A stretch of 32,966 nucleotides of DNA from Bacteroidota bacterium (GTDB lineage Bacteria; Bacteroidota; Bacteroidia; Bacteroidales; VadinHA17): positions 1-32,966 of the forward strand of contig JADFQJ010000027.1 in assembly GCA_022561875.1 (NCBI GenBank), written 5' to 3'. A program made the translations under genes and the position numbers. The notes under the pieces are model-generated. The model had not been told where the DNA came from and made no database searches. It saw only the letters and a program-made list of their open reading frames with translations. Position 1 is the stretch's first letter; every line of letters starts with the position of its first letter. Positions 3,191 through 28,960 of the stretch are shown piece by piece.

Positions 3191-3240
3191 TTCACGCAAA
3201 GATCGCAAAGAAGGCGCAAAGATCGCTAAGAAAAGAGTTC
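3191..3240 (+). repeat. Solo TTCACGCAAAG repeat
   Basis: TTCACGCAAAGATCGCAAAG at 3191-3210 is followed by a second, degenerate GCGCAAAGATCGCTAAG copy. It matches the right arm of the GxxExxY cassette (26980 onward) at 18 of the first 20 bases and stays similar for about 45 bp. No nuclease gene sits next to it, so it looks like a lone arm. Confidence 0.75.
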
Positions 3241-4226: not shown

Positions 4227-4616
4227 TCATAGATTTTTCCAATCGCCATTCTCTTTAATAAGCCTGATCAGTTCATCAACCGCATCATCTGAATAAATGT
4301 TTGTTCTGACGACTTCTTTCTTTTTATAGAGTGTTATTCTTCCCCTGGCTGCACCAACATAACCATAATCGGCATCTGCCATCTCGCCCGGGCCATTTAC
4401 AATACAGCCCATCACAGCTATCTTAAGTCCTTTGAGGTGACTAGTTGCTTTCTTTACTCGTGCAGTTGTTTTCTGCAGATCAAAAAGGGTCCTGCCGCAT
4501 GATGGACAGGAAATGAACTCGGTTTTGCTGAACCTTGCCCTGGCTGCCTGTAACAAACCAAAAGATGCAGAAAGTTTTTGTTCATGAGTTTTGTTTTCTC
4601 CATTAATTAACCATAT
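4227..4616 (-). pseudogene. ispG: ispG, C-terminal [4Fe-4S] part after an in-frame TGA
   Basis: This is the downstream part of the same gene as the entry at 4617-6062 and is in the same frame. Reading on past the TGA at 4617-4619 gives IWLINGENK and then, near 4556, the standard IspG C-terminal domain: [19 protein letters not shown] with two cluster cysteines, [19 protein letters not shown] with the third, and the usual IKENGDW end. There is no ATG in frame between the TGA and the conserved domain; the first plausible start is TTG at 4554-4556. Independent translation is therefore doubtful. The gene is broken by nonsense mutation, misread in this assembly, or read through. The domain holds the cluster needed for catalysis, so the upstream fragment alone should be inactive. 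Confidence 0.8.
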
Positions 4617-6062
4617 TCAATTGCAAACCTTTTCCAGAAAGAGAATTCCCAATTCGCCTGACATTTTAATAAGGAAAGACTCATGATCTTTCTTTTTGTA
4701 AGTTTTTTTGAAAATTAACGGGTTAAGGGAATTATGTTTATGGTAATAGTTAAGGAATTCATAAAATGAGGAAGGTTCCCGGAGAGGTTGAAGTTCCAGA
4801 ATAAAAACAATATTCCTTCCTTTGGTGGCAGGAATAATACTATCGGGGTTAGTGCCAGGTTCAATCTTTACAAAATTCAGATCTTTATTTATTAAACCTG
4901 ATGTTAAAAATTCATTTGTTGTAAGTAAAGGGAAAAGATTTTTATAATTGTTTTGAAGTTTTAACCAGAGAGCATAAGGAACTATCAATTTGGTATCCAA
5001 AGAATAGTTTTCAATTTCCAGTTCTTTTTCAACAAAGAGATAATCAGGTATATTTTTTACAATGCTTTTATTAACAGGAAGTGATGAGATCACCACAGGA
5101 ACAGAATTGCCGCCAATATTTCCAACATTGCTAAACAGGGTGCCGGACATTTTGTGAATAAGTGAGAAAAACAATCTTTTTTGTACAGAAACCGGACATT
5201 TTCGTGTAGAGAAATGCTTAACAATATTTATGGCTACCGGAATTTCTTTAACAGGATCTTCTGTAAGCGACACCCTGATAGTATCCCCGATACCCTCATT
5301 TAATAAAGTCCCTATACCCACAGCCGACCTTATCCTTCCGTCTTCTCCATCACCGGCTTCAGTAACACCAAGATGCAGGGGATAGTTCATCTTTTCCTGT
5401 TGCATGGTTTTTACCAGAAGCCGGTATGCTTTAACCATTTCGCGGGTATTGCTGGATTTAAGTGAAACAACCAGGCTGTGAAAATCCGCCTCATTGCAGA
5501 TCCTTAACATTTCCATTGCCGATTCAACCATTCCCTCAGGAGTATTCCCATATCGTATCGTCATCCGGTTAGATAATGATCCATGGTTTACTCCAATCCG
5601 TATTGCCGTATCATTGTTTCTGCAAATATTCAAAAGAGGTAACAGCCTTTGTTTGATCTTCTCCTTTCCGTGTTTATATTCTTCTTCAGATATTGAAGAC
5701 GGAGGATTTTTCATTCGTTTATCTGCGAAGTTACCCGGGTTAATACGTACTTTCTCGACATTCCCTGCAGCAATTTCAGCAACACCCGGATTAAAATGCA
5801 CATCGGCGATAATTGGAGTTAAGTATCCTTTGTTCCTTAGTTCACTGCGAATCATAGCCAGGTTTTCTGCTACATTTTTGTTCTGGGCAGTGATCCGCAC
5901 GTAGTCAGCCCCTGCTTTAATGATCCTGATGCACTGTTTTACAGTTGCAGTAGTATCCATCGAATCGGTGTCGGTCATAGACTGAATCCTGATGGGATTA
6001 TTCCCTCCTAACGGTACATCACCAACATACACTTCCCTGGATTTCCATTCCGGATTTTTCAT
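4617..6062 (-). CDS. ispG: ispG (gcpE), HMBPP synthase: TIM-barrel and insert domains, ended by in-frame TGA
   Basis: IspG makes 4-hydroxy-3-methylbut-2-enyl diphosphate from methylerythritol cyclodiphosphate, the penultimate step of the MEP isoprenoid pathway. These 481 residues cover the N-terminal TIM barrel (IRIQSMTDTDSMDT, ADVHFNP, KVRINPGNF, GVNHGSLS, VTEAGDG) and, from about residue 285, the large middle domain found in Bacteroidota, Chlamydiae and plants. The frame stops at TGA 4617-4619 after LFLEKVCN. Homologues, as I recall them, have a Gly just before IW at this place, so GGA to TGA would explain it. With the downstream part the gene spans 4227-6062, a normal length of about 611 residues. 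It lies 88 bp downstream of cysS on the same strand. Confidence 0.9.
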   Translation of the reverse strand: MKNPEWKSREVYVGDVPLGGNNPIRIQSMTDTDSMDTTATVKQCIRIIKAGADYVRITAQNKNVAENLAMIRSELRNKGYLTPIIADVHFNPGVAEIAAGNVEKVRINPGNFADKRMKNPPSSISEEEYKHGKEKIKQRLLPLLNICRNNDTAIRIGVNHGSLSNRMTIRYGNTPEGMVESAMEMLRICNEADFHSLVVSLKSSNTREMVKAYRLLVKTMQQEKMNYPLHLGVTEAGDGEDGRIRSAVGIGTLLNEGIGDTIRVSLTEDPVKEIPVAINIVKHFSTRKCPVSVQKRLFFSLIHKMSGTLFSNVGNIGGNSVPVVISSLPVNKSIVKNIPDYLFVEKELEIENYSLDTKLIVPYALWLKLQNNYKNLFPLLTTNEFLTSGLINKDLNFVKIEPGTNPDSIIPATKGRNIVFILELQPLREPSSFYEFLNYYHKHNSLNPLIFKKTYKKKDHESFLIKMSGELGILFLEKVCN

Positions 6063-7811: not shown

Positions 7812-7920
7812 TGATTATTAAGAAGAGGCGAGAGAATAGGCTCTTTGAACCTCTAGCAACCTCCTTCTCCGAAGGAAAGGTGCTAAAACCTAATTCCGCT
7901 ATTGCGGGAAATGATAATTA
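7812..7920 (+). ncRNA. SAM-I (S-box) riboswitch upstream of metH
   Basis: The sequence fits the SAM-I aptamer in order. ATTATTA near 7814 pairs with TGATAAT near 7912 (P1). The GAGGCGAGAGAATAGGCTCT core follows, then CCTCTAGCAACC with the invariant GCAACC. CCTTCTCCGAAGG forms P3, GGTGCTAAAACC matches the GGTGCnAAnnCC element, and a P4 hairpin lies in CCGCTATTGCGG. Binding of S-adenosylmethionine should lower expression of the metH-metF unit that follows. About 270 nt lie between the aptamer and metH. No clear poly-U terminator follows it, so control may act on translation or on the small ORF starting 14 nt after P1. Confidence 0.9.
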
Positions 7921-8191: not shown

Positions 8192-11100
8192 ATGAAAAAC
8201 GAAATCAGGGAAAAATTAAAAAAACGTGTGCTCGTGCTGGATGGCGCCATGGGGACAATGATACAATCATACAGGTTGGAGGAGCAAGACTTTCGGGGAG
8301 AACGGTTCAGATTAGTCTCAAAGGACCAGAAAGGAAACAATGATCTGCTTAACCTGACTCAACCTGAGGTCATCCGGGAGATTCACCGGAAATACCTGGA
8401 GGCGGGAGCTGACATCATCGAGACCAACACTTTCAGCGCCAATCGGATATCCCAGTCTGATTGGGGAATGGAAGATCAGGTATTCGACATAAATTATGAA
8501 GCTGCACGGATAGCTTCTGCCTGTGCTTCTGAATTCACCCGTAAAGATCACGGCAAGCCACGGTTTGTTGCCGGATCAATAGGTCCGACAAACAAAACAG
8601 CATCTCTCTCATCCCGGGTAGAAGATCCAGGGTACCGAGATGTCACTTTTGATGATTTTGTGAAGATTTACGGTGAACAGGCAGACGCTTTGATTGAAGG
8701 AGGAGTTGATTTGCTATTGGTTGAAACGGTATTTGATACGCTTAACGCCAAAGCGGCATTGTATGCTATCCGTCAGGTGCAGGCGAAAAGGAATACTGAT
8801 ATACCGGTAATTGTTTCGGTAACTATCTCAGATTCAAGCGGCCGCACCCTTACAGGACAAACACTGGAGGCTTTTCTGGTATCTGTTTCTCATGCCGACC
8901 TGTTAAGCGTTGGGTTAAACTGCTCTCTTGGTGCGAAGGAACTGAAGCCATATGTTGAAGAGTTATCGCGGAAATCACCCTGGTATTTGAGTGTTTATCC
9001 AAATGCCGGCTTACCAAACGAGTTCGGGGAATATGATGAATCGCCTGAGGCAATGGCATTACATATCAAAGAATTCCTTGATCAGAAATTAGTAAATATT
9101 ATTGGCGGTTGTTGCGGAACCACTCCTGAGCATATCAGGCAGTTTGTAAAACTGGCAGAAAAATCAGAAAACAGAATCCCCCCTCCTGTAAAACATAACC
9201 TGAATTTAAGCGGACTTGAACCATTGACAGTTTTTCCAGGGAGCAACTTTATTAATATTGGTGAACGGACGAATGTTTCGGGATCAAAAAAATTTGCAAA
9301 ACTAATACGTGAAGGAAAATTTGAAGAAGCATTGTCTGTTGCACGGCAACAAGTTATCGGTGGAGCTCAGATACTGGATGTAAATATGGATGAGGCCTTA
9401 CTGGATTCGGAAAGGGCAATGGAGAAATTTCTCAGGTTAGTGGCATCTGATCCGGAAATAGCCCGGGTACCTGTGATGATCGATTCTTCAAAATGGTCGG
9501 TGATTGAAACAGGGTTAAAAAACCTTCAGGGGAAGGGTATAGTAAATTCAATCAGTTTGAAAGAGGGAGAGCAGGTGTTTCGGGATCACGCCGAAACGAT
9601 CAGGAAATATGGAGCGTCTGTTGTGGTAATGGCATTTGATGAAAAGGGACAAGCCGCAGGCTTTGAAGAAAAAACAAGAATATGCCGGCGGGCATATGAA
9701 ATTTTAACAAAACAAATAGCATTTCCTCCCGAAGATATCATTTTCGACCCTAATATTCTTACGATAGGGACCGGTATTGAGGAACACAACAATTATGCTG
9801 TTGATTTTATCAGGGCTATCCGCTGGATCAAGGAAAATCTCCCTCGTTCAAAAGTGAGCGGGGGGATCAGTAATTTATCATTCAGTTTCAGAGGGAACCA
9901 GGTGATCAGGGAAGCGATGCATTCTGCTTTTCTTTATCACGCTATTAAAGCAGGTCTCGATATGGGAATCGTTAATGCAGGAACGCTTACGGTATATGAT
10001 GAAATTCCGGCAGATCTGTTAGAGCGGATAGAGGATATTATTTTCAACCGGCGCCCTGATGCTACCGAAAGACTTGTTGAATTTGCCGGAAAAATCAAAA
10101 AAACAGATCAGGCAGAAAAACCAAAAGAATCCTGGAGAAAAAATCCGGTAGATGAGCGGCTGACCTATTCGCTGGTTAATGGTATAACCGATTATATTGA
10201 GGATGATATTAAGGAAGCACAGAAACAACATCCGAAAGCACTCGACATTATTGAAGGTCCGTTGATGAACGGAATAAGCCGGGTAGGCGACCTTTTTGGT
10301 TCGGGAAAAATGTTCCTGCCCCAGGTGGTTAAAAGCGCCCGTGTAATGAAAATAGCTGTGGCAATACTGGAGCCATATATAAATGCCGGGAAATCGGAAA
10401 AAACCGGGGATTTGCAAAAAGCCGGCAAGATCCTTTTAGCTACTGTGAAAGGAGATGTGCATGATATTGGAAAGAACATTGTGGGGGTTATCCTGGGCTG
10501 CAATAACTATGAAGTGCTCGATATAGGTGTGATGAAGTCTGTTGAGAGTATTATTGAAGAAGCAGGGAAAAACCAGGTGGATATTATTGGTGTGAGCGGG
10601 TTAATTTCCCCGTCATTGGAGGAGATGATCCATCTGGCCAGGGAGCTTGAACTAAAAGAATTCAAAACACCACTGTTGATAGGTGGTGCAACCACTTCAA
10701 AGATGCATACCGCAGTTAAAATCGATCCGGAATATTCTGCAGGAGTAGTACATGTGAAAGATGCTTCACGCAGCGCGGAGATTGTGAATAAATTGATTTC
10801 TAAAACAAAAAGAACCGGTTTCCTGAAGAATGTTCGTTCAGATTATGCCCGGTTAAGAGAGATAAAAAAAGGCATTCAGCAAAAACATATAAGTTTAATT
10901 AATGCACGGTATAAAAAATTCCGGATCAATTGGTCTGAAAAAAACATTTATGCTCCGAAAAAACCCGGAATTCACCTGTTCGGGAAATATTCACTCGAAG
11001 AGGTCAAACCCTATATTAACTGGACATATTTTTTTCATGCCTGGGAACTTAAAGGAAAATTTCCGGAGATACTGGATCATCCTGAAAGGGGAAAGGAAAG

Positions 11101-11854
11101 CCGTAAACTATATGAAGATGCCCGGAAATTTATGGATCGTATTATCAGGGAGGAGATACTCGAAGCCCGGGCTGTATTTGGTATTTTCCCGGCAAATGCA
11201 AGAGGCGATGATATTGAAGTTTATGCTGATGAAAGCAGAAAACAGGTATTAACTGTTTTCAATATGCTTCGGTCGCAATCAGAAAAAACCAACAACGGAG
11301 ATCACCGCTCTCTGGCTGATTATATTGCTCCGTTAGAATCCGGGATACCTGACTACATTGGGGTTTTTGCTGTATCAGCAGGGTTTGGGGTGGAAAAATG
11401 GATTGCCAGTCTAGGAAAGCAGAGGGATGATTATCAAATTATAATGCTCAAAACACTGGCAGACCGGCTGGCAGAAGCATTAACCGAACGTATTCATCAG
11501 AGGATCAGGAACGAATTCTGGGGTTTTGAGAAAAAAGCAGATCAGTCAATCGAAGGTCTGTTTAAGTCACAATATCAGGGTATCCGTCCGGCTTATGGAT
11601 ATCCTTCCTGCCCGGATCATTCTGAAAAGCAAAAGCTTTTTGAGCTGTTGAACGTTGAAAAAAACATTGGGGCCACACTCACTGAAAGTTTTATGATGGA
11701 TCCGGCTGCTTCGGTAAGCGGCCTGGTCTTTGCCAATCCCCTGGCATCATATTTTGATGTCGGAAAAATACTGGATGATCAGGTGCTTGATTATGCCCGG
11801 AGGAAAGGAAGATCGAAAACGGAAATTGAAAAGTGGCTAACCCGTAACACGTAA
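8192..11854 (+). CDS. metH: Cobalamin-dependent methionine synthase
   Basis: MetH moves a methyl group from methyl-THF via cobalamin to homocysteine. All modules are present in 1220 residues: homocysteine domain (10-320) with zinc ligands C244, C307 and C308; pterin-binding domain (about 350-620); B12 cap and Rossmann domains (650-880) with DVHDIG at 755-760, whose His757 ligates cobalt; and the SAM-dependent reactivation domain (about 900-1210) with [12 protein letters not shown] near 1132-1143. The full length suggests a self-contained enzyme that does not need split subunits. It lies under the SAM-I leader and 27 bp before metF. The last four codons (TRNT) and the TAA stop fall in a CGTAACA heptamer array, so the extreme C terminus is repeat-derived. 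Confidence 0.97.
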
Positions 11855-13178: not shown

Positions 13179-15449
13179 ATGGAAAGAAAAAAGGAAAAAG
13201 GCAATTTTACCAGAGAAAGTCTGACGAATCAGCTAAGTGGTATTTTTTCGAACAATCCGGATAAATCATACAATTATAAACAACTTGCCGGCAGGTTGGG
13301 AATAAAAGATTCTTCGATAAAAAAACTTATTAATGAAGTTTTGTATGAATTGAAGGAGAATGAATTTCTTGAGGAGTTACACAGAGGCAAGTTCAGATTC
13401 AGATCAAAGGGAGGTTACATAATTGGGAAAGTTGACCTTACGGCATATGGTTCAGCGTATATAGTGTCTGACAATCTGGAGGAGGATGTTTTTGTGTCAC
13501 AGGCAAATTTGAAACATGCCCTTCAGGGAGACAGGGTAAAGGTGTTTTTGTTTGCCAGGCGAAAAGCGCGCAGACTTGAAGGGGAAATTATTGAGATTAT
13601 TGAACGGGCAAGGACAAAATTTGTGGGTATTGTTGAAGTGTCAAAGAATTTCGCGTTCCTGGTACCTGAAAACAGGCTAATGCCATATGATATTTTTATT
13701 TCAAAAGATAAGCTTAAAGGTGCGAAAACCGGACAAAAAGCTGTTGCACGGATTGTTGACTGGCCTGACAAGGTTAAAAACCCTTTCGGTGAAATTGTCG
13801 ATGTGCTGGGCATGCCCGGCGAACATGAGGTGGAAATGCATGCTATCCTGGCAGAGTTCGAGTTGCCCTATAAATTTACTGATGAAGTAAATGAAGCTGC
13901 CGGGAAGATCATGGACCAAATTTCGAAGGAAGAATACAAACAAAGAAAAGATTTTAGAAAAACCCTCACTTTTACTATTGACCCGGAAGATTCAAAAGAT
14001 TTTGATGATGCTTTGTCTTTGCGGAAGCTGACCGGAGGAAATTGGGAAGTCGGGATCCATATAGCAGATGTTACCCATTATGTAAAACCCCGGACTCTTT
14101 TGGATAAAGAAGCCAGGGAAAGGGGAACATCTGTGTACCTGGTTGATCGTGTTGTACCTATGTTACCTGAAAAACTGTCAAACAAGATTTGTTCCCTGAG
14201 ACCTGATGAAGAAAAACTTTGCTTCTCGGCAGTATTTGAGCTTGATAAGGATGCAAATGTAAAAAATGAATGGATCGGAAAAACTGTGATCAGATCGAAA
14301 CGCAGGTTTACATATGAAGAGGCGCAGCAGGTGATTGAAACAGGGAAAGGGGAAATGAGTGACGAGTTGCTGAAATTGAATGAGTTAGCGCAAATATTAC
14401 GTAGAAGAAGATATGAAAAAGGATCGCTGGATTTTGACAGGGTTGAAGTTAAGTTCAATATTGATGAAAAAGGAACTCCTATTGGTGTGTTTTTTAAAGA
14501 GCAAAAAGAATCAAACCAGCTTATTGAAGAGTTCATGTTGCTTGCCAACAGAAGGGTGGCCGAATTTATCTCCAAACGGTTAGGGAAAAAGCCCAAAACT
14601 TTCGTTTACAGGATCCACGATAAACCTAACCAGGAAAAGCTTGAATCATTTTTAAAGATACTGAAACGATTCGGTTATAAAATTGACACTTCCTCACAAA
14701 AGAAACTTTCCCGGTCGATGAACCATTTGTTAAAAACTGTTCAGGGAAAAAGAGAACAAAATCTTGTTGAGACACTGGCATTGCGTTCTATGGCCAAAGC
14801 TGTTTATTCAACCCGCAACATTGGGCATTACGGACTGGCGTTTGGTTATTACACCCATTTTACCTCGCCTATCCGCCGGTATCCTGATATGATAGTTCAT
14901 CGTTTACTGGAAGCGTATATGAAAAATTTACCGTCAAAAAGTGAAGATAAATATGAGAAGCTTTGCAGACATTCCTCAGAGATGGAGCGGAAGGCAGTGG
15001 ATGCTGAACGGGCATCAATTAAATATAAACAGGTTGAATTTCTGAAAGATAAAATTGGTGAAGAATTTGAGGGAATCATTTCGGGGGTGGTGGATTGGGG
15101 TTTATATATTGAGATCGTTGAGAATAAATGCGAGGGACTTGTTTCGATCAGGGAGCTTGATGATGATTATTATGAATTTGATGAAGAGAATTACAGGCTT
15201 ATTGGCAGACATTCAAGGAACCAATATCAGTTAGGCGACACCGTAAAAGTAGAAGTAGTACGTGCAAATCTTGCCAGGAAACAGCTTGATCTGAAACTGG
15301 TGAAGGGGCGAAGAAGTAAGAAGGCGGAAGGCGGAAGGCGGAAGGCGGAAGGCGGAAGGCACAAGACGCAAGACACAAGGTGCAAGGAGGAGGAAGGCAG
15401 AGGTCGGAGGAGAAAAGACACAAGGCGCAAGACACAAGGGAAGAAGTAA
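13179..15449 (+). CDS. rnr: Ribonuclease R, with repeat-encoded basic tail
   Basis: RNase R is a 3'-5' exoribonuclease that degrades structured RNA. Its 756 residues hold an N-terminal winged helix (about 12-75), two cold-shock domains (about 80-225), the RNB domain (about 255-590) and an S1 domain (about 630-708, EEFEGIISGVVDWGLYIEI). The catalytic aspartates D268, D274, D276 and D277 are in TIDPEDSKDFDDA, matching the metal site of E. coli RNase R. Residues 710-756 are encoded by GAAGGCG and CAAGACG heptamer repeats: a tail with 21 Lys/Arg of 47 that contains KKAEGGRRKAEG. Natural RNase R often has a Lys-rich tail, so the repeat may have replaced or extended it. The stop (TAA) lies in a GTAAGAA unit. 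Confidence 0.95.
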   Translation: MERKKEKGNFTRESLTNQLSGIFSNNPDKSYNYKQLAGRLGIKDSSIKKLINEVLYELKENEFLEELHRGKFRFRSKGGYIIGKVDLTAYGSAYIVSDNLEEDVFVSQANLKHALQGDRVKVFLFARRKARRLEGEIIEIIERARTKFVGIVEVSKNFAFLVPENRLMPYDIFISKDKLKGAKTGQKAVARIVDWPDKVKNPFGEIVDVLGMPGEHEVEMHAILAEFELPYKFTDEVNEAAGKIMDQISKEEYKQRKDFRKTLTFTIDPEDSKDFDDALSLRKLTGGNWEVGIHIADVTHYVKPRTLLDKEARERGTSVYLVDRVVPMLPEKLSNKICSLRPDEEKLCFSAVFELDKDANVKNEWIGKTVIRSKRRFTYEEAQQVIETGKGEMSDELLKLNELAQILRRRRYEKGSLDFDRVEVKFNIDEKGTPIGVFFKEQKESNQLIEEFMLLANRRVAEFISKRLGKKPKTFVYRIHDKPNQEKLESFLKILKRFGYKIDTSSQKKLSRSMNHLLKTVQGKREQNLVETLALRSMAKAVYSTRNIGHYGLAFGYYTHFTSPIRRYPDMIVHRLLEAYMKNLPSKSEDKYEKLCRHSSEMERKAVDAERASIKYKQVEFLKDKIGEEFEGIISGVVDWGLYIEIVENKCEGLVSIRELDDDYYEFDEENYRLIGRHSRNQYQLGDTVKVEVVRANLARKQLDLKLVKGRRSKKAEGGRRKAEGGRHKTQDTRCKEEEGRGRRRKDTRRKTQGKK

Positions 15450-23049: not shown

Positions 23050-23588
23050 TAGGTAGTAAATAGTAAGAAGAAAGAAAGAAGAAAGAAAAGAAATAATAGA
23101 AAAAAAAAGGCAAGAAAGAAAAATTTGGTTATAGAATCAATAATTAAAAAAAATTTTACATGGAGAATAAGAGAACATATCAAGGGTTCAAAGATCTAAT
23201 AGTATACCAGAAAGCATTTGCTCTGTCAATTGAAATATTTAATTTGACAAAGTCATTTCCAAAAGAAGAAAAGTACTCTCTTACAGATCAAATTCGCCGT
23301 TCTTCTAGATCAGTTGGCGCTAACATTGCGGAGTCATGGCCTAAAAGAAAGTATGAAAAAGCATTTATCGCTAAATTAATTGACGCTCAATCTGAAGCTT
23401 GTGAGACGATACATTGGCTTGATGAATCTCAAGCCCTGGGATATATTGAAAAAGAAAAGCTAAATGAACTCAATGAATTAACACTTGAAGTTCAAAGAAT
23501 GCTCGAAAGCATAATTCAAAATCCCGGAAAGTTTTGTTACTAACTTCTACTTACTATATACTTTTTACTACATACTTCTTACTTTTTC
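23031..23588. mobile_element. Inverted-repeat cassette carrying an S23/four-helix-bundle gene
   Basis: The left arm (23031-23070) is a heptamer array of GTAAGAA, GTAAATA, GTAGGTA, GTAAATA and GTAAGAA. The right arm (23543-23588) is its inverted counterpart, reading in reverse GTAAGAA, GTATGTA, GTAAAAA, GTATATA and GTAAGTA; about 32 of 38 positions match. The only gene inside is the S23 ORF, whose TAA stop abuts the right arm. No transposase is present. S23 proteins were first found in stem-forming intervening sequences of 23S rRNA genes, so this looks like an intergenic relative of those elements. Mobility is inferred, not shown. Confidence 0.55.
23160..23543 (+). CDS. Four-helix-bundle (S23 / 23S rRNA IVS) protein
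   Basis: This 127-residue protein has the signature of the S23 family: FKDLIVYQKAFALSIEIFNLTKSFP, SLTDQIRRSSRSVGANIAESW, AFIAKLIDAQSEACETIHWLDES, and a last helix LNELTLEVQRMLESII. It should be all-helical and oligomeric with no enzyme motifs. The family is known from intervening sequences in bacterial 23S rRNA genes and as scattered copies in Bacteroidota; it is related in fold to the Avd protein of diversity-generating retroelements. Its function is unknown. Here there is no rRNA or retroelement nearby. The gene lies between inverted heptamer arms, and its ATG follows an A-rich stretch. Confidence 0.88.
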   Translation: MENKRTYQGFKDLIVYQKAFALSIEIFNLTKSFPKEEKYSLTDQIRRSSRSVGANIAESWPKRKYEKAFIAKLIDAQSEACETIHWLDESQALGYIEKEKLNELNELTLEVQRMLESIIQNPGKFCY

Positions 23589-23642: not shown

Positions 23643-24737
23643 ATGATATTAGTAACAGGAGCAACCGGACTTGTAGGCAGTCATTTGCTTTATGAATTGC
23701 TCAGCAAGGGAGAAAAGGTTAAAGCATTGAAGCGGCAATCAAGTGATACAAACCGTGTATTAAAAACATTAGGTTACTATACCGGTGAGCCTGAAAATCT
23801 TTTTTCGGGAATAGAATGGATTAACGGAGATGTAACAGACAGAGAAAGTCTGGACCCGGCTTTTCTTGATGTTGATAAAGTTTATCATGCTGCGGGAATG
23901 ATTTCGATGGACCCTGCTGATCGTGCTGAAATGGCCAGGATTAATATTGAGGGAACTGCAAACATAGTGAACCTGTGCGTTGAAAAGAAGATACGTAAAC
24001 TTTGCCATGTAAGTTCTGTAGCTGCTTTTGGTCATCGTGTACCTCCTGTCGTTGTGGACGAAAATGTTTCATGGAAAGCAGGTACGCACAAATTAACATA
24101 CAGGGTCACAAAATTCAATGCTGAAATGGAGGTTTGGCGGGGAATGGCTGAAGGACTGGAGGCGGTGATAGTTAACCCGTCAATCATTATTGGTCCGGGT
24201 GACTGGAGAAAAGGGAGTCCGGCTATGTTTGACAGAGTGGCGAAAGGATTAAAGTTCTATACACATGGTGTTACCGGTTATGTTGATGTCAGGGACGTTG
24301 CAAAAGCAATGATACTGCTGATGGAGAGCAGTGAAAAGGAAGAGCATTTTATTCTGAACTCAGAAAATCTGTCTTTTCAGGAATTATTTGAAATGATTGC
24401 TATTGAATTGAATAAACCGGTCCCGTCAATAGCAGCTACACGATTTATGACAGGACTGGCCTGGCGGCTGGATTATGCCAGGAAAAAGTTATTGGGAGGT
24501 ACCAGTTTAATAACCAGGGAGGCAGTTGCATCAGCTCATAAAGAAACCTTGTATTCGAATGAGAAGGTAAGGAAAGCGCTGGGGATTGATTTTATACCGA
24601 TACGGGAAAGTGTCATGAATACTGTGAGATGTTATTGTGAGTCGGGGGCGAAGAAGGCAGAAGGCGGAAGGCGGAAGGCGGAAGGCACAAGACGCAAGGC
24701 GCAAGACGCAAGACACAAGGCGGAAGGGAAGAAGTAA
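23643..24737 (+). CDS. NAD-dependent epimerase/dehydratase (extended SDR) with repeat-encoded tail
   Basis: This extended short-chain dehydrogenase/reductase has the Rossmann motif GATGLVGSH at 6-14, the Asp-containing INGDVTD segment, VYHAAGMIS, the catalytic Ser in HVSSVAAFG and YRVTK (YxxxK), and VNPSIIIGPGDWR. Members act on nucleotide sugars, steroids or flavonoid-like substrates, and the substrate here cannot be named. The native protein ends about residue 334. Residues 335-364 are read from GAAGGCG and CAAGACG heptamers and contain the same KKAEGGRRKAEG peptide found at the end of RNase R. The stop lies in a GTAAGAA unit. It is convergent with the Wzi-like gene, the spacer being entirely repeats. 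Confidence 0.88.
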   Translation: MILVTGATGLVGSHLLYELLSKGEKVKALKRQSSDTNRVLKTLGYYTGEPENLFSGIEWINGDVTDRESLDPAFLDVDKVYHAAGMISMDPADRAEMARINIEGTANIVNLCVEKKIRKLCHVSSVAAFGHRVPPVVVDENVSWKAGTHKLTYRVTKFNAEMEVWRGMAEGLEAVIVNPSIIIGPGDWRKGSPAMFDRVAKGLKFYTHGVTGYVDVRDVAKAMILLMESSEKEEHFILNSENLSFQELFEMIAIELNKPVPSIAATRFMTGLAWRLDYARKKLLGGTSLITREAVASAHKETLYSNEKVRKALGIDFIPIRESVMNTVRCYCESGAKKAEGGRRKAEGTRRKAQDARHKAEGKK

Positions 24738-24882
24738 GAAGGCGGAAGGCGGAAGGCAGAAGGGCAGAAGGCAGAAGGCAGAAGGCAGAAGGGAAGAGGA
24801 GAAGAAGAGAGCGGTGAGAGGTGAGAGGTGAGAGGTGAGTGAAGCAACCAGCAACCAGTAACCAGTAACCAGCGACCAGTAG
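24645..24882 (+). repeat. Composite heptamer array filling the SDR / Wzi-like spacer
   Basis: From inside the SDR gene to 2 bp before the stop of the convergent Wzi-like gene, the sequence is arrays of 7-bp units: GGCGGAA (24660-24685), CAAGACG/CAAGGCG (24687-24720), GGCGGAA/GGCAGAA (24740-24790), GAGGTGA (24813-24840) and CAGTAAC/CAGCAAC (24843-24880). The purine-rich strand is again the plus strand. Order and units match the block after rnr. Confidence 0.88.
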
Positions 24883-24884
24883 AA

Positions 24885-26471
24885 TTAAAATCCGAAATTA
24901 AACCCGAAGTTAAAGGTGTTTGTTTTGCCATACCAGAATGCCGGGCAATAATCTTCATTGCCGGTGACATTCCTGTGTGTATAGCCGGCAAACACAAATC
25001 CGTTGTTAATGATCTCATACCGGGCGGATAAGAAGAACATACTGCTTTCCCATTCAATCGATTCCATAAACGGAAGTCCAAGCCGGTAGGTTCCGAGTGC
25101 AGTGTAATCGGGTCCCTTTTGGGCATGAGTATAGCTTGCTTTCAGGAACAACCCACGCAACGGTTTGGCTTCAAGTGATAAGTAAAACTCTTTGCTGTTA
25201 TCGCGAAGATAATGTCCCAGGTTGAAACGGTTCGATTCAAAAGTTATTGTAGGCACATAATGCATAAATGTCAGCGGATTTGAACGGGTATATTCGGTTG
25301 TGAAAAAAACATTTCGAACAGGGAAATGATCAATCCTGAAACCCAGCTTTGTTGAAAAGAAGTTAGAGTGTTCTTCGGGCTTGAACATTCGTCCGATAGC
25401 CACTTCATCAATAAATAAAGAAGCATACAAATGGAGATTTTTTATTTGCCTTGAACTTATATCAAAAAACATCTGGGAATTCTGATTATCAATTCCCGGG
25501 CTCAGGGTGTGATCGATCGATTTAAAGAAAAACAGGGGAATTAAATATCCGGGATGTACCCCTATATCAGAATAAACAATTGAGTTCCCGACAGAGATAT
25601 TCAGTTTTTTTAAAGGTGTAAATGTGAAAAGGTTGGTTGCGATGAATTTCTTATAAAACACCTCCCTGTAATCTGTGCCGTAGCTGTTTACCAGGAAGTA
25701 TGATCTTGAACTGTCAACCACTTCCGAAACCAGCCATCCGTGAACATAGTTGAATTCAAACCAGGATACCGGCTTCAGGTTTACTTTAATATGGGCAAAA
25801 GAGGGAGTACGACCTGAAAAAATGTTCGAACCATTATAATTTGTGCCCCAGGTAAAATGATCCTTCACCAATCCTATCATTCCCCAATTCCATGAATAGG
25901 TTATCCCGCCCATCATTTCGCTGTAATCATATTGTGCTTTATAGTTTCCTCCTGTTCTCTGATTAAGAAAGCGATCCTCCGATAGTTTTTCGTTTTCATG
26001 ATTGTCTCTCAGACTGGCATAAAAGCCCCAGTGGTCACCGTAATATGCAAAAGCCTCTGCACCGTTCCAGCGATGCCATACCGCCCCGTTTTCGTTAGAC
26101 CAATATTGAATCCCGCCAATCGGGTTTATTGACAATGTAAAAACGGAGTCTTTTCTATATAACAGATCCAGACGTTTATCAAATTCCTTATCCGGTTTCA
26201 GTTCCTTATTAAAGTCTTTCAGGTAGAATATGAGGTCCTTTATTTGTCTCGGGTTTAAATTATCTTTTTGGCTTTCAATTTCCTGAAGCTTGTTGGCAAT
26301 GAATGTGCGTGAATATGGTTTATAAGCTGAATTCAAATTAATTATTTGGTTATTTGCCATCTCGTCCAGAAAATTATACAAGCTTGTGTTTGAAAGATGA
26401 TAGAAAACATTCTGTGCAGTAGAGGAAAAAAGGATTAGTAAAGATATTAATATAAGGAATGTTTTTCTCAT
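24885..26471 (-). CDS. Wzi-like outer-membrane beta-barrel (capsule assembly family)
   Basis: From ATG 26471 the protein is 528 residues and begins with a clean signal peptide (MRKTFLILISLLILFSSTAQ); nine extra codons upstream are possible but spoil this. The mature part opens with a helical region (about 30-110, LYNFLDEMANNQIINL, RTFIANKLQEIE) typical of the capsule-assembly Wzi family, then many short amphipathic beta strands ending in aromatic residues and a terminal NFGFNFGF, as outer-membrane barrels do. Wzi proteins anchor or help export surface polysaccharide. The sugar transferase two genes upstream fits that role. A general outer-membrane porin of another family is the alternative. 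Confidence 0.72.
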   Translation of the reverse strand: MRKTFLILISLLILFSSTAQNVFYHLSNTSLYNFLDEMANNQIINLNSAYKPYSRTFIANKLQEIESQKDNLNPRQIKDLIFYLKDFNKELKPDKEFDKRLDLLYRKDSVFTLSINPIGGIQYWSNENGAVWHRWNGAEAFAYYGDHWGFYASLRDNHENEKLSEDRFLNQRTGGNYKAQYDYSEMMGGITYSWNWGMIGLVKDHFTWGTNYNGSNIFSGRTPSFAHIKVNLKPVSWFEFNYVHGWLVSEVVDSSRSYFLVNSYGTDYREVFYKKFIATNLFTFTPLKKLNISVGNSIVYSDIGVHPGYLIPLFFFKSIDHTLSPGIDNQNSQMFFDISSRQIKNLHLYASLFIDEVAIGRMFKPEEHSNFFSTKLGFRIDHFPVRNVFFTTEYTRSNPLTFMHYVPTITFESNRFNLGHYLRDNSKEFYLSLEAKPLRGLFLKASYTHAQKGPDYTALGTYRLGLPFMESIEWESSMFFLSARYEIINNGFVFAGYTHRNVTGNEDYCPAFWYGKTNTFNFGFNFGF

Positions 26472-26536
26472 AATACTTTTTGGATTGGCAAGCATCATAA
26501 ACCACCAAAATATCTCTGTGATCTTTGTGTATGAAA

Positions 26537-26999
26537 CTTTGCGGTCTTTGCGTGAAATTTTTTACAGATTATTTACTAATCGATGAATTCCGTTTTTAAT
26601 AATTTTTTCGTTAAAATTTATTAGTAATCCTAATTTCTTTTCAGACAATTTTAAATAAGTAAGTGTTTGTGCAAAATGAACAGGGGCTAATCTGTCCACT
26701 GATTTAATTTCTAAAATTACCTTATTTTCAATCATCAAATCGATCCTATAACCTACTTCCAAATAAACATCTTTGTATTTAAAAGGCATTGGAACTTGTT
26801 GTTCAACCTCTAAACCCAGGCTTTTTAAGTCATAGGATAAGGCATTTTCATAAGCTGATTCAAGAAGACCGGGGCCTATTTGTTTATGAAGTTTTATAAC
26901 TGCACCAATAACTTTATAAGATATTTCATTTTCAGTCATTGTATAAATATAATAAGTTTCTTGTAAAGATATAAAAGAGTTCACGCAAAGGCCGCAAAG
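26537..26999. mobile_element. Inverted-repeat cassette carrying a GxxExxY nuclease-fold gene
   Basis: CTTTGCGGTCTTTGCGTGAA (26537-26556) and TTCACGCAAAGGCCGCAAAG (26980-26999) are inverted copies matching at 19 of 20 positions. They enclose a single gene whose stop lies 5 bp from one arm and whose start lies 40 bp from the other. The right side continues as further degenerate CGCAAAG repeats to about 27060, including a second TTCACGCAAAGG. A lone copy of the arm is at 3191. No transposase is encoded. The unit behaves like a non-autonomous or nuclease-driven element; this is inference. Confidence 0.55.
26562..26939 (-). CDS. GxxExxY protein (PD-(D/E)XK nuclease-fold family)
   Basis: I choose ATG 26939 (MTENEISYKVIG), giving 125 residues; an upstream extension in frame is translated from the flanking repeat. 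The naming motif is G24-L-L-E27-S-A-Y30. The nuclease-type residues follow in order: D67 in YRIDLMI, E77-I-K79 in ILEIKSV, and Q91xxxY95 in AQTLTYLKL. The family is placed in the PD-(D/E)XK superfamily, but its biological role is not known to me. All expected catalytic positions are intact, so it is probably an active metal-dependent nuclease. It sits between inverted repeats, inserted in the same orientation between the sugar transferase and Wzi-like genes. Confidence 0.88.
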   Translation of the reverse strand: MTENEISYKVIGAVIKLHKQIGPGLLESAYENALSYDLKSLGLEVEQQVPMPFKYKDVYLEVGYRIDLMIENKVILEIKSVDRLAPVHFAQTLTYLKLSEKKLGLLINFNEKIIKNGIHRLVNNL

Positions 27000-27122
27000 A
27001 AGGCGCAAAGAACGCAAAGAGTTCACGCAAAGGCTGCTAAGCAGTGCAAAGAACGAAAAGTTTGCATAGTTTAAACCTACTGCAGATAAAAAACCAAAAA
27101 GGTCGTAATTTGTATGGTTAAA

Positions 27123-28676
27123 TCATTGGCTTCGGGCTTGTTTGATAACAATATTAAATATTGCTTTCCAGAAATATTTCAGGTCTGTTCGGAATGGAGC
27201 TTTTTCATATGCTTCAAGATACTTCATCTCGGATTTCTGGATCTCTTCAAGTGTTTTAGGGAGATCGTAATAGAAAGGAGGGATAAGTCCGGGTTTATGT
27301 TTTATTCGTTTTTCCTGTAATTCTTTATCATACAGGTTGAAGTATTGCCTGCTCAGGGGTCTGACACCAACAAGTTTCATGTTACCTTTGAGCAAGTTAT
27401 ACAGCATGGGAAGTTCATCGATCCAAAATCGTCGCATGATCTTACCCACGGTTGAAACACGGAAATCATGATTGAATTTACCTCCATCCTTAAGTTCATG
27501 CATTTGGTACATATAATCCTGCAGATATTCGGCAAACGGATACATGGTGCGGAATTTCAGTATCCTGACTATCTCCCCGTTTCGACCGACACGGTCAAGT
27601 TTTATCAAAGGGCCATAGCTCGGGTCAGGATCATTTGAAGGTTCCTGCACTTTCTTTGCGGCCAAATAACACAAACTATCAATATATTCTTCATCTGTTA
27701 TTTCAAATCCGCTTGATATCAGCCGTCCGAGAGTTTCAGCCCGGGTTATCACACGATTACTGCCATGGGTAAGGAAAAAGTATATGCCTTTTGTTAAACC
27801 GAATTTCGGGAACACTCTTTTTATTGGGTAGTCGATTAAGTAGTAATAAAAAAAATTGAAAGGCAACAAATATTTTTCGAACAACCTTTTCTTTCTCATA
27901 TCCTTGGTTTCAACACAACATATGAATGTGCCACCCAATGGAAGTTTTGAGTTTGCCGATTCAAAAAAACGGTTTATATACCGGAGATCATTGATCCGTT
28001 TCAGGTTAAAAATGGACCGGTACCGGTTTTCAGGCTGACTTTTGATATTAAAAAGGCTGGTGGTTGAAAGCAGAAGGGTGTTATTGCTGTCCCCATTGGT
28101 ATTTCTGATAAAGAAGTCCAGTGCAATTTTACCACATTCAGTAATAATATTGTCCCGCAGGCGTTCCGATATCTTTGAACTCAGATTAACTGCGGCTTGT
28201 TCATTTTTGTTTCCGTTTTTTCTTTTTCCGTTGTTTTGCAACTGCCTGAAGGCAATATATTCCTGATCCCGAGGAAATGAACTGGACCGGGCGATCTGCA
28301 GAAAATAATATAAGTTAACAGCAATGATCTCAATAATTGAAGCAGTCAATATTGTACCGAAAACAACAGTGCGTGAATAATAGGTTGTTCTTAAGAGGAA
28401 CATCAAAAAAGAGATTGAACCGAGGATAATGAAATTACAGAGGACCATGTTCCCCAGTTTTTTCTTAAGAACAATTTCTTTAGTAATGTCATATTTTTTA
28501 AAGAAGAAAGAAATAACCATCCAAATTGTGAGAAAAATGAAGAAGGGGTTAAGGAGTCTTTCGATATAGGAAATATCCTTGCCGGACTTGAACCAGACAG
28601 TAAGGAAGAAAGAACCGGTAACTATTACCAGATCAATAATAAAAAAAACAAATCCCTTTTTTAGCTGTTTCTCCAT
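27123..28676 (-). CDS. Polyprenyl-phosphate sugar-1-phosphate transferase (surface polysaccharide)
   Basis: This membrane enzyme of 517 residues should start a surface glycan by moving a sugar-1-phosphate from a nucleotide sugar to undecaprenyl phosphate. Four N-terminal membrane segments lie within about residues 8-130. The C-terminal bacterial sugar transferase domain (from about 350) shows IKLDRVGRNGEIVRILKFRTM, the FWIDELPMLYNLLKGNMKLVGVRP block and KHKPGLIPPFYYDLPKT. The middle (about 190-345) is unusual: it lacks the KRxxD re-entrant helix just before the catalytic domain and instead has a globular region with LGGTFICCVETKD and RAETLGRLISSGFEI, reminiscent of methyltransferase C-terminal strands. 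I recall this layout in other Bacteroidota. The sugar is not identifiable. Confidence 0.88.
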   Translation of the reverse strand: MEKQLKKGFVFFIIDLVIVTGSFFLTVWFKSGKDISYIERLLNPFFIFLTIWMVISFFFKKYDITKEIVLKKKLGNMVLCNFIILGSISFLMFLLRTTYYSRTVVFGTILTASIIEIIAVNLYYFLQIARSSSFPRDQEYIAFRQLQNNGKRKNGNKNEQAAVNLSSKISERLRDNIITECGKIALDFFIRNTNGDSNNTLLLSTTSLFNIKSQPENRYRSIFNLKRINDLRYINRFFESANSKLPLGGTFICCVETKDMRKKRLFEKYLLPFNFFYYYLIDYPIKRVFPKFGLTKGIYFFLTHGSNRVITRAETLGRLISSGFEITDEEYIDSLCYLAAKKVQEPSNDPDPSYGPLIKLDRVGRNGEIVRILKFRTMYPFAEYLQDYMYQMHELKDGGKFNHDFRVSTVGKIMRRFWIDELPMLYNLLKGNMKLVGVRPLSRQYFNLYDKELQEKRIKHKPGLIPPFYYDLPKTLEEIQKSEMKYLEAYEKAPFRTDLKYFWKAIFNIVIKQARSQ

Positions 28677-28769: not shown

Positions 28770-28960
28770 GGGGGGACGAAGAAGAAGAGAGAAGAAGAAG
28801 TAATTAGTAGGTAGTAAGTAGTATGAAGAAAGAAAGAAGTCGGAAGGCAGAAGGCAGAAGGCGGAAGGCGGAAGTAAGGAGTAAGAAGAGATGAGAGGTA
28901 AGTTGAAGAGTGAAGGACAAAGAAGGACAAAGGCAAAAGGAGAAGAGCAGAAGCGAAGAA
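28770..28960 (+). repeat. Composite heptamer array between sugar transferase and Rhs genes
   Basis: The block contains GTAATTA/GTAGGTA/GTAAGTA units (28800-28825), GGAAGGC/AGAAGGC units (28842-28875), GATGAGAGGTAAG-type units and GAAGGAC units. Positions 28799-28839 match the S23 cassette left flank 23041-23081 at 38 of 41 bases, so it looks like a lone S23 arm. The block sits between divergent genes, so it is not confined to 3' ends. The rest of 28677-29301 holds no gene I can support. Confidence 0.8.

Follow-up and report, generated by a model that had tools for sequence, protein, structure and literature searches.

Genes of the GxxExxY family lie between inverted arms built of short repeated units, an architecture that is family-wide, and at orthologous sites the gene and its arms are gained, lost and exchanged together. 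On balance we favour the view that gene and arms make up a mobile cassette of about 0.5 kb, whose nuclease would recognise its own arms and promote copying of the cassette by repair, with both the cleavage and the movement deduced from the comparisons described below. The finding assigns a role to a gene family that is very common and known mainly by the name of a motif, and it names an owner for a class of intergenic repeats that is widespread. No description of such a GxxExxY element was found in the collection of open-access papers to which the search was confined.

The window gene and its arms

The window, by which we mean the whole stretch of 32,966 nucleotides that was analysed, comes from a member of the Bacteroidota and contains a GxxExxY gene for which a first, sequence-only reading had reported inverted copies of one 20-mer on the two sides. 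These copies are indeed present, at 26537-26556 on the reverse strand and at 26980-26999 on the forward strand, with 19 of 20 positions alike, and the claimed distances of 5 bp to the stop and 40 bp to the start of the gene are correct as well. They prove to be parts of longer arrays of 7-bp units, with four units downstream (at 26546, 26537, 26523 and 26514, spanning 26514-26552) and two tandem copies upstream (Table 1). The upstream and downstream arrays are mutually inverted, and the inverted pair I1 matches 26537-26564 with 26972-26999 over 28 nt at 89% complementarity. An ORF that starts at 27026 is a mere read-through of the upstream arm. The lone copy of the 20-mer, said to occur without the gene, is found at 3191-3210, where it is 18/20 alike to the copy at 26980 and 19/20 alike to the copy at 26537, and the CGCAAAG repeats that had been seen around it form a four-unit array of their own. 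We take its neighbours to be a HAD-like gene on one side and a lipoprotein-like gene on the other.

With at most one mismatch, the 11-mer TTCACGCAAAG occurs four times in the window against 0.71 expected, and one of 100 shuffles contained as many. The 20-mer, with at most three mismatches, occurs eight times in the 2.77-Mb genome, four of these in the window, and the reversed control pattern does not occur. A second GxxExxY gene in the same genome has arms of the CACAAAG type, and solo arrays are present on several other contigs.

Table 1. The GxxExxY gene of the window, its arms, its neighbours and the lone arm
Feature	Position	Strand	Remarks
GxxExxY gene	26562..26939	-	125 aa, predicted PD-(D/E)XK nuclease of Cas4/RecB type; matches to TIGR04256 and PF13366
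Downstream arm	26514..26556	-	TTCACGCAAAG-AC-CGCAAAG...CACAAAG-AT-CACAGAG; from the sequence
Upstream arm, copy 1	26980..27019	+	four CGCAAAG units, at 26984, 26993, 27004 and 27013
Upstream arm, second degenerate tandem copy	27022..27060	+	direct repeat D1, 82% identical, spacing 42
Lone four-unit arm without gene	3191..3230	+	units at 3195-3230; polymorphic within the genus
Upstream neighbour of the GxxExxY gene	27123..28676	-	marks the orthologous site; tblastn to relatives; presumably a sugar transferase, by resemblance
Downstream neighbour, 537-aa gene	24885..26498	-	marks the orthologous site; relatives found; no Pfam or NCBIfam match at E 0.001

The enzyme

By profile, motif and modelled fold, GxxExxY is a predicted PD-(D/E)XK nuclease of the Cas4 fold. 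The window protein matches TIGR04256 (GxxExxY) with an E value of 6.7e-42 (142.5 bits, cut-off 35) and PF13366 (PDDEXK_3) with 9.7e-40 (136 bits, cut-off 22), and these are its only family matches, with none to a transposase of the DDE or Y1/HUH kind. The statement that the protein keeps every residue expected of such a nuclease holds true: H18, G22, G24, E27, Y30, D67, E77, K79, Q91, Y95, N108 and R120 are all there, each is found in 97-100% of 116 intact members, and we take H18, D67, E77-x-K79 and Q91xxxY95 to be a motif of the Cas4/RecB type. An AlphaFold2 model of the protein (pLDDT 95.7) has its best VIA-align match in SSO0001 (4ic1; Z 9.6, 102 residues aligned, rmsd 4.5), presumably a Cas4 protein. 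Foldseek places lambda exonuclease high in its list (E 3e-3), with a best E of 1.5e-3 and none at or below 0.001, and a sequence search of the PDB returned no solved relative (best E 0.22). There is no conserved cysteine cluster in an alignment of 16 members.

The protein is under purifying selection, with its catalytic residues kept. At a Flavobacterium locus that is treated below, the median dN/dS of intact genes is 0.13 in type A (14 pairs) and 0.14 in type B (23 pairs), and 7 of the 30 copies there are disrupted, with a longest ORF of 110 aa or less. The window protein has no match in 50,697 phage records; eight plasmid records match it, all of them predicted to be non-mobilizable.

Inverted arms across the family

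GxxExxY is present in 186 of 395 genomes of the phylum Bacteroidota. The assignment to this phylum, and of genus g40 to Flavobacterium, follows from loci that are identical in the two collections used (L116 = L240, Flavobacterium frigidimaris; L128 = L250, Flavobacterium sp.). Arms were scored as the best inverted match between 250-bp flanks, with a threshold score of 30, in a phylum set (118 genes with full flanks, of 119 matches) and in a named set drawn from another collection (77 of 82); the two share three loci, and both hold best-scoring loci, in the named set the best 80 of at least 584, which makes them a non-random draw. In the phylum set 74 of the 118 genes reach the threshold; the figure is 59 of 1168 for swapped partners and 6 of 157 for control genes taken from the same loci. 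In the named set it is reached by 49 of 77, compared with 96 of 916 swapped partners and 9 of 382 control genes. Some related loci are among the swapped pairs. The sequence-only reading had staked itself on finding inverted arms beside related genes, and on these not being ordinary spacer repeats; both expectations are borne out, the rate being 63-64% for GxxExxY and 3.8% and 2.4% for control genes. Scores below 30 were obtained for 44 of the 118. Arrays of at least three units were found, by one measure, at none of 26 GIY-YIG genes against 81 of 118 GxxExxY genes, and, by a second measure, at none of 30 Y1-transposase loci against 84 of 118.

The genus of the window contains eight GxxExxY genes in seven genomes, and seven of them are included in the set of loci (L021 is unscored); six of the seven scored reach 30 and the seventh reaches 29. 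The arms in this genus are of the CGCAAAG, CACAAAG, CGCAGAGACGC, CGAATT and CACTAAA types, and the two sides of each gene match. Because the arm sequence varies between genes, in step with the protein, a search for TTCACGCAAAG alone would miss most of them. Loci of the named set that reach 30 include some with the labels Opitutae (L254), Anaerolineales (L261), Anaerolineae (L242), Gammaproteobacteria (L259), Rhizobium (L229), Treponema (L238), Planctomycetota (L184) and Ignavibacteria (L201). MAGs with arms are found under the labels Planctomycetota, Opitutae, Anaerolineales, Gammaproteobacteria and Treponema, and contamination of such MAGs is possible. Loci labelled Opitutaceae (L202), Spartobacteria (L222), Acidobacteria (L194), Anaerolinea (L246) and Chlorobiaceae (L231) stay below 30, and L190 and L195 score 29.

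Anatomy of the arms and their match to the protein

The arms are arrays of CRCNRAK-type units, and not palindromes with GTAG/GTGG. When the nearest arrays of the 118 genes are compared, 60 genes show the order array, gene, reverse-complement array, and 10, the window gene among them, show the opposite orientation; 11 have no array, and 37 are one-sided or otherwise arranged. The upstream array often begins 25-60 bp ahead of the start codon, and the downstream array begins soon after the stop. Long direct repeats on both sides are additionally present in 31 of 118 genes, and many of these resemble two-array hairpins. Four-unit arms obey an x-y-x rule, with first and third spacings equal in 86% of 69 arms against 47% expected (p 8e-11) and a middle spacing that is larger in all, and such an arm spans 30.8 ± 1.2 bp, or about three helical turns.

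At the variable purines of the unit the two arms of a cassette agree at 0.90 (n 230), compared with 0.55 between cassettes, and at the spacers they agree at 0.53, compared with 0.35, in 35 comparable cassettes out of 192. Since recent copying would have kept the spacers too, high agreement of the purines next to diverged spacers points to a shared specificity, and the matched units suggest the trace that a common reader of both arms would leave. Among 5891 gene pairs from different families, those with more identical proteins also have more similar arms (Mantel r 0.36, p 0.001), against r 0.03 (p 0.17) for control flanks 740-900 bp away. Among 1078 directed whole-gene alignments between unrelated loci most end at the ends of the gene, a smaller peak ends 40-60 bp outside it (98 upstream, 182 downstream), and 49 extend beyond 100 bp. 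Gene and arms form a unit in which arm and protein match, and recognition of the arms by the GxxExxY protein is strongly suggested by these comparisons.

Filled and empty sites

Polymorphism between filled and empty sites, the third expectation of the sequence-only reading, is found at the window locus, at the site of the lone arm and among 88 Flavobacterium loci. The window locus holds the gene, flanked by the same pair of neighbours, in genomes G000, G001 (95% identical) and G003, and lacks it in G002, G008, G010 and G017. The gene of G003 is 57.6% identical and has different arms, next to neighbours that are 84-91% identical. As for the lone array of the window, G000 has it, G003 has it in rearranged form, and neither G002 nor G005 has it between the same genes; the 260 bp read in G001 do not contain it either.

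The Flavobacterium locus lies downstream of the map gene and was fetched as 88 loci of 91 genomes searched. A GxxExxY gene stands before a methyltransferase gene in 30 of these, 54 have no such gene, and four lack the second neighbour. The 54 consist of 51 loci classed as empty and three gene-less hairpins at the same site (L357, L358, L370); the empty class includes three loci with another long insert (L366, L367, L382), and arm-like scars are visible by eye in some of its members (L338, L340, L346). As a separate observation, another palindromic repeat (CCTGCAAGGTTTT...AAAACCTTGCAGG) fills the gap in L321 and L331, both counted as empty, which indicates that this gap accepts unrelated inserts.

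The 30 genes at this locus are of two types, A being 68-100% and B 37-42% identical to the query, and the class of arm tracks the type of gene in all 30, with CRCNRAG in 17/17 of type A and CRCRRATT in 13/13 of type B (p 8e-9). Map proteins that are 97.8-98.5% identical to the reference are nevertheless accompanied by type A in L314, by type B in L313 and by nothing in L315. On the map tree the 84 scored loci need at least 27 state changes; shuffled labels need 30.6, and 6 of 200 shuffles needed as few as the real labels, which shows slight clustering of the states. The well-supported branches alone require 12 or more gains or losses of A and 9 or more of B. At such orthologous sites the gene comes, goes and is exchanged along with its arms.

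Solo arrays

A strict three-unit pattern has 1171 matches (a four-unit array may count twice) in 122 of the 395 genomes, and its reversed control has 15 matches in 11 genomes. Genomes that possess GxxExxY hold 1125 of the 1171. Arrays occur in 109 of the 186 genomes with the gene and in 13 of the 209 without it (odds ratio 21, p 2e-31), and phylogeny was controlled in part by leaving out family f35, after which the figures are 109 of 181 and 11 of 128. The strict pattern is absent from 77 of the 186 positive genomes. One genome, G410, has 24 strict matches and no GxxExxY gene that was found, and its arrays may have lost their owner or may have a different one.

Thirty arrays, the first among the matches listed and at least one of them ending at a contig end, were inspected individually. 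For 26 of them the sequence read, which extended up to 1.5 kb to either side, contains no GxxExxY gene, so the association between array and gene is not only that of the gene with its own arms. Nine are close pairs in opposite orientation, and five overlap an ORF of at least 100 aa. Solo arrays show a modest likeness to the sampled cassettes of the same genome (p 0.025, partly a family effect, in twelve genomes with one or two of the cassettes of each taken for comparison); the own genome ranks high in families f1 and f23, and not in G331, G233, G229, G185 and G312.

Probable movement of the cassette and rival explanations

Type A partly follows the host gene map (Mantel r 0.66, p 0.002), and type B shows no detectable tracking of it (r 0.13, p 0.18). 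The pair L342/L343 shows a difference of 1% at third positions for the GxxExxY gene, as against 34% for map. The near-identical block of this pair begins with the left arm, near the stop of map, and continues to about 66 bp inside the methyltransferase gene; identity then falls to about 85-92% for 270 bp and returns to 96-98% over the final 160 bp of the comparison. The left end of the block is what one would expect if a break at the arm had been repaired from a filled template. The mosaic right side is also compatible with ordinary recombination, and the transfer in this one pair resembles recombination into an orthologous site more than a clean transposition.

We infer from such comparisons how a cassette would be copied. 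The GxxExxY protein would recognise the phased units, both in its own arms and in solo copies, the nuclease would cut at the units so recognised, and repair would copy the cassette into the cut site by way of homology in the arms or the flanks; solo arms would then be decayed, gene-less or co-mobilised copies of the cassette. By analogy, the best reading of this logic is one that resembles either REP/RAYT or homing, carried out by an unrelated nuclease. The original proposal of a mobile element tied to its own repeats is supported: it could have failed in three ways, and in each the opposite was found, as relatives have inverted arms, the arms are not ordinary spacer repeats, and sites are both filled and empty.

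The rival that deserves most attention, although we regard it as rather improbable, makes the cassette a passenger that is carried by general homologous recombination between species, or has its arms moved in trans, for example by a Y1 transposase, with GxxExxY serving the host in some other way. The block in L342/L343 runs into the neighbouring gene and is followed there by a second near-identical stretch, no target-site duplication was recognised by eye at pairs of filled and empty sites, and Y1_Tnp is present in 26 of 26 array-rich genomes tested. Recombination, however, leaves unexplained the covariation of protein and arm between families, the type-specific arms at one site and the concentration of arrays in GxxExxY-positive genomes, and Y1_Tnp loci own palindromic repeats of their own and lack the arrays counted above. 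It is the presence of Y1 in all 26 array-rich genomes, together with the ability of recombination to explain the transfer that was mapped, that keeps this rival from falling further. A regulatory role, in which the arms would be operators or pairing RNA that control the gene (through long-range 5'/3' pairing, attenuation or insulation), agrees with the usual position of the arrays just ahead of the start codon and just after the stop, and a dN/dS of about 0.13 suggests a maintained function. We think it improbable, given that most of the sampled arrays have no GxxExxY gene nearby, that the spacers of the two arms disagree at about every second position, which would break pairing, and that an Rfam search over the window returned a SAM riboswitch and a tRNA only, with nothing at the arms.

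The closeness of the fold to Cas4 raises the thought of a module for host defence, or one resembling CRISPR adaptation; SSO0001 and lambda exonuclease are the top structure matches, and one PADLOC Cas4 model matches 12 of 16 family members weakly (E up to 0.1, best 1.9e-4). With an arm right next to the gene on either side, there is no space for a partner gene, which makes such a module very improbable to us, and the lack of a match in the phage records speaks neither against defence nor for carriage by phages. That ordinary intergenic repeats came to lie beside the gene by chance is hardly credible and already contradicted: similar arrays do exist away from the gene, and 4 of 157 control genes score at least 35, but the rates in control genes, the missing arrays at GIY-YIG genes, the covariation of arm and protein and the tracking of gene type by arm class are all against it. 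The preferred reading remains that of a cassette copied through the action of its own nuclease.

Relation to known systems

The system closest in logic is REP/RAYT. In a published account (PMC3686654), a nuclease gene is described as lying between inverted copies of a repeat that is also found alone elsewhere, with an abundance of the repeat that tracks the gene, a repeat type that may change around the gene, and occasional pseudogenes. The GxxExxY gene is likewise flanked by inverted repeats that also have solo copies, and the abundance of its arrays tracks the gene in the way reported above. The enzymes differ, however, RAYT being a Y1 (HUH) enzyme and GxxExxY a predicted PD-(D/E)XK protein of the Cas4 fold, and so do the repeats, since REP is a palindrome with GTAG/GTGG and the GxxExxY arms repeat a CRCRRAG or CRCRRATT unit in phased direct arrays. 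RAYT-like Y1-transposase loci of the same genomes have repeats of a different kind; in a similar test 15 of 24 of them are inverted, compared with 2.9% of swapped pairs. The GxxExxY cassette works like REP/RAYT and is no member of it. If the preferred reading is true, it would represent a second version of the same design, non-homologous to the first.

Homing endonuclease genes include the PD-(D/E)XK enzyme I-Ssp6803I. GxxExxY shares with them the filled and empty alleles at orthologous sites, the disrupted copies and the repeated changes of state, but it is not located in an intron, an intein or a conserved host gene, it carries its own arms, and it has dispersed solo arms. Autonomous insertion sequences with MITEs have terminal inverted arms and gene-less copies, as does the GxxExxY cassette, whose one gene, however, has no transposase domain, whose arms are phased arrays, and for which no target-site duplication was recognised by eye. 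With Cas4, lambda exonuclease and RecB the family shares its fold and predicted catalytic motif, but it is minimal at 125 aa, has no conserved cysteine cluster and leaves no room for a partner gene. Two further candidates were ruled out: a CRISPR array, as the units are of 9-13 bp with no repeat-spacer pattern of CRISPR size, and a type III toxin-antitoxin, a system to which arms on both sides and solo copies are foreign.

Other gene families also have repeats beside them. Standalone GIY-YIG genes of the phylum (L400-L429) are accompanied by inverted or direct repeats of another class, of the TGTCATCCCGAG...TCGAGG type, and a score of at least 30 is reached by 13 of 26 such loci and by 23 of 650 swapped pairs. 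The arm score needs a minimum length, which 26 of 30 GIY-YIG and 24 of 30 Y1_Tnp loci had, and the flanks of the GIY-YIG, Y1_Tnp and TIGR02436 loci were cut slightly differently from those of the 118-gene set. In genome G018 (locus L035) the gap orthologous to that of the window contains a gene, read as GIY-YIG-like, between inverted GTCATTGCGAG repeats; the GTCATTGCGAG repeat was beside none of 26 standalone GIY-YIG genes tested. A TIGR02436 four-helix-bundle gene of the window (23160-23543) has 12 copies in its genome and is present in 114 of 148 genomes; taken as a control family (L282-L311), it is inverted in 5 of 30 loci against 27 of 870 swapped pairs, with other repeats, such as AAGTATCAAG.

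More tentatively, and as a conjecture that could well fail, we suggest that GxxExxY cassettes are undescribed minimal selfish elements, in which the nuclease would read a helically phased, clade-specific code and drive the copying of the cassette and of gene-less arms, and that together with RAYTs and standalone GIY-YIG genes they may represent one of several unrelated nuclease families with private dispersed repeats. A large part of the short interspersed repeats in these genomes would in that case belong to one nuclease or another. The occurrence of matched gene and arm types at one locus makes the specificity of nuclease for repeat directly testable by swapping arms between types.

Other features of the window

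Runs of another 7-bp unit, GGAAGGC/AGAAGGC, lie at 15319-15360, 24652-24786 and 28842-28869, two of them being read as the C-terminal tails of ORFs. The gene at 4227-6062 on the reverse strand, presumably ispG, has an in-frame TAA after residue 481, beyond which its C-terminal part continues in frame; this may reflect an assembly error, a split gene or decay. The SAM riboswitch is at 7812-7920, ahead of a large ORF (8192-11854), and is an ordinary one.
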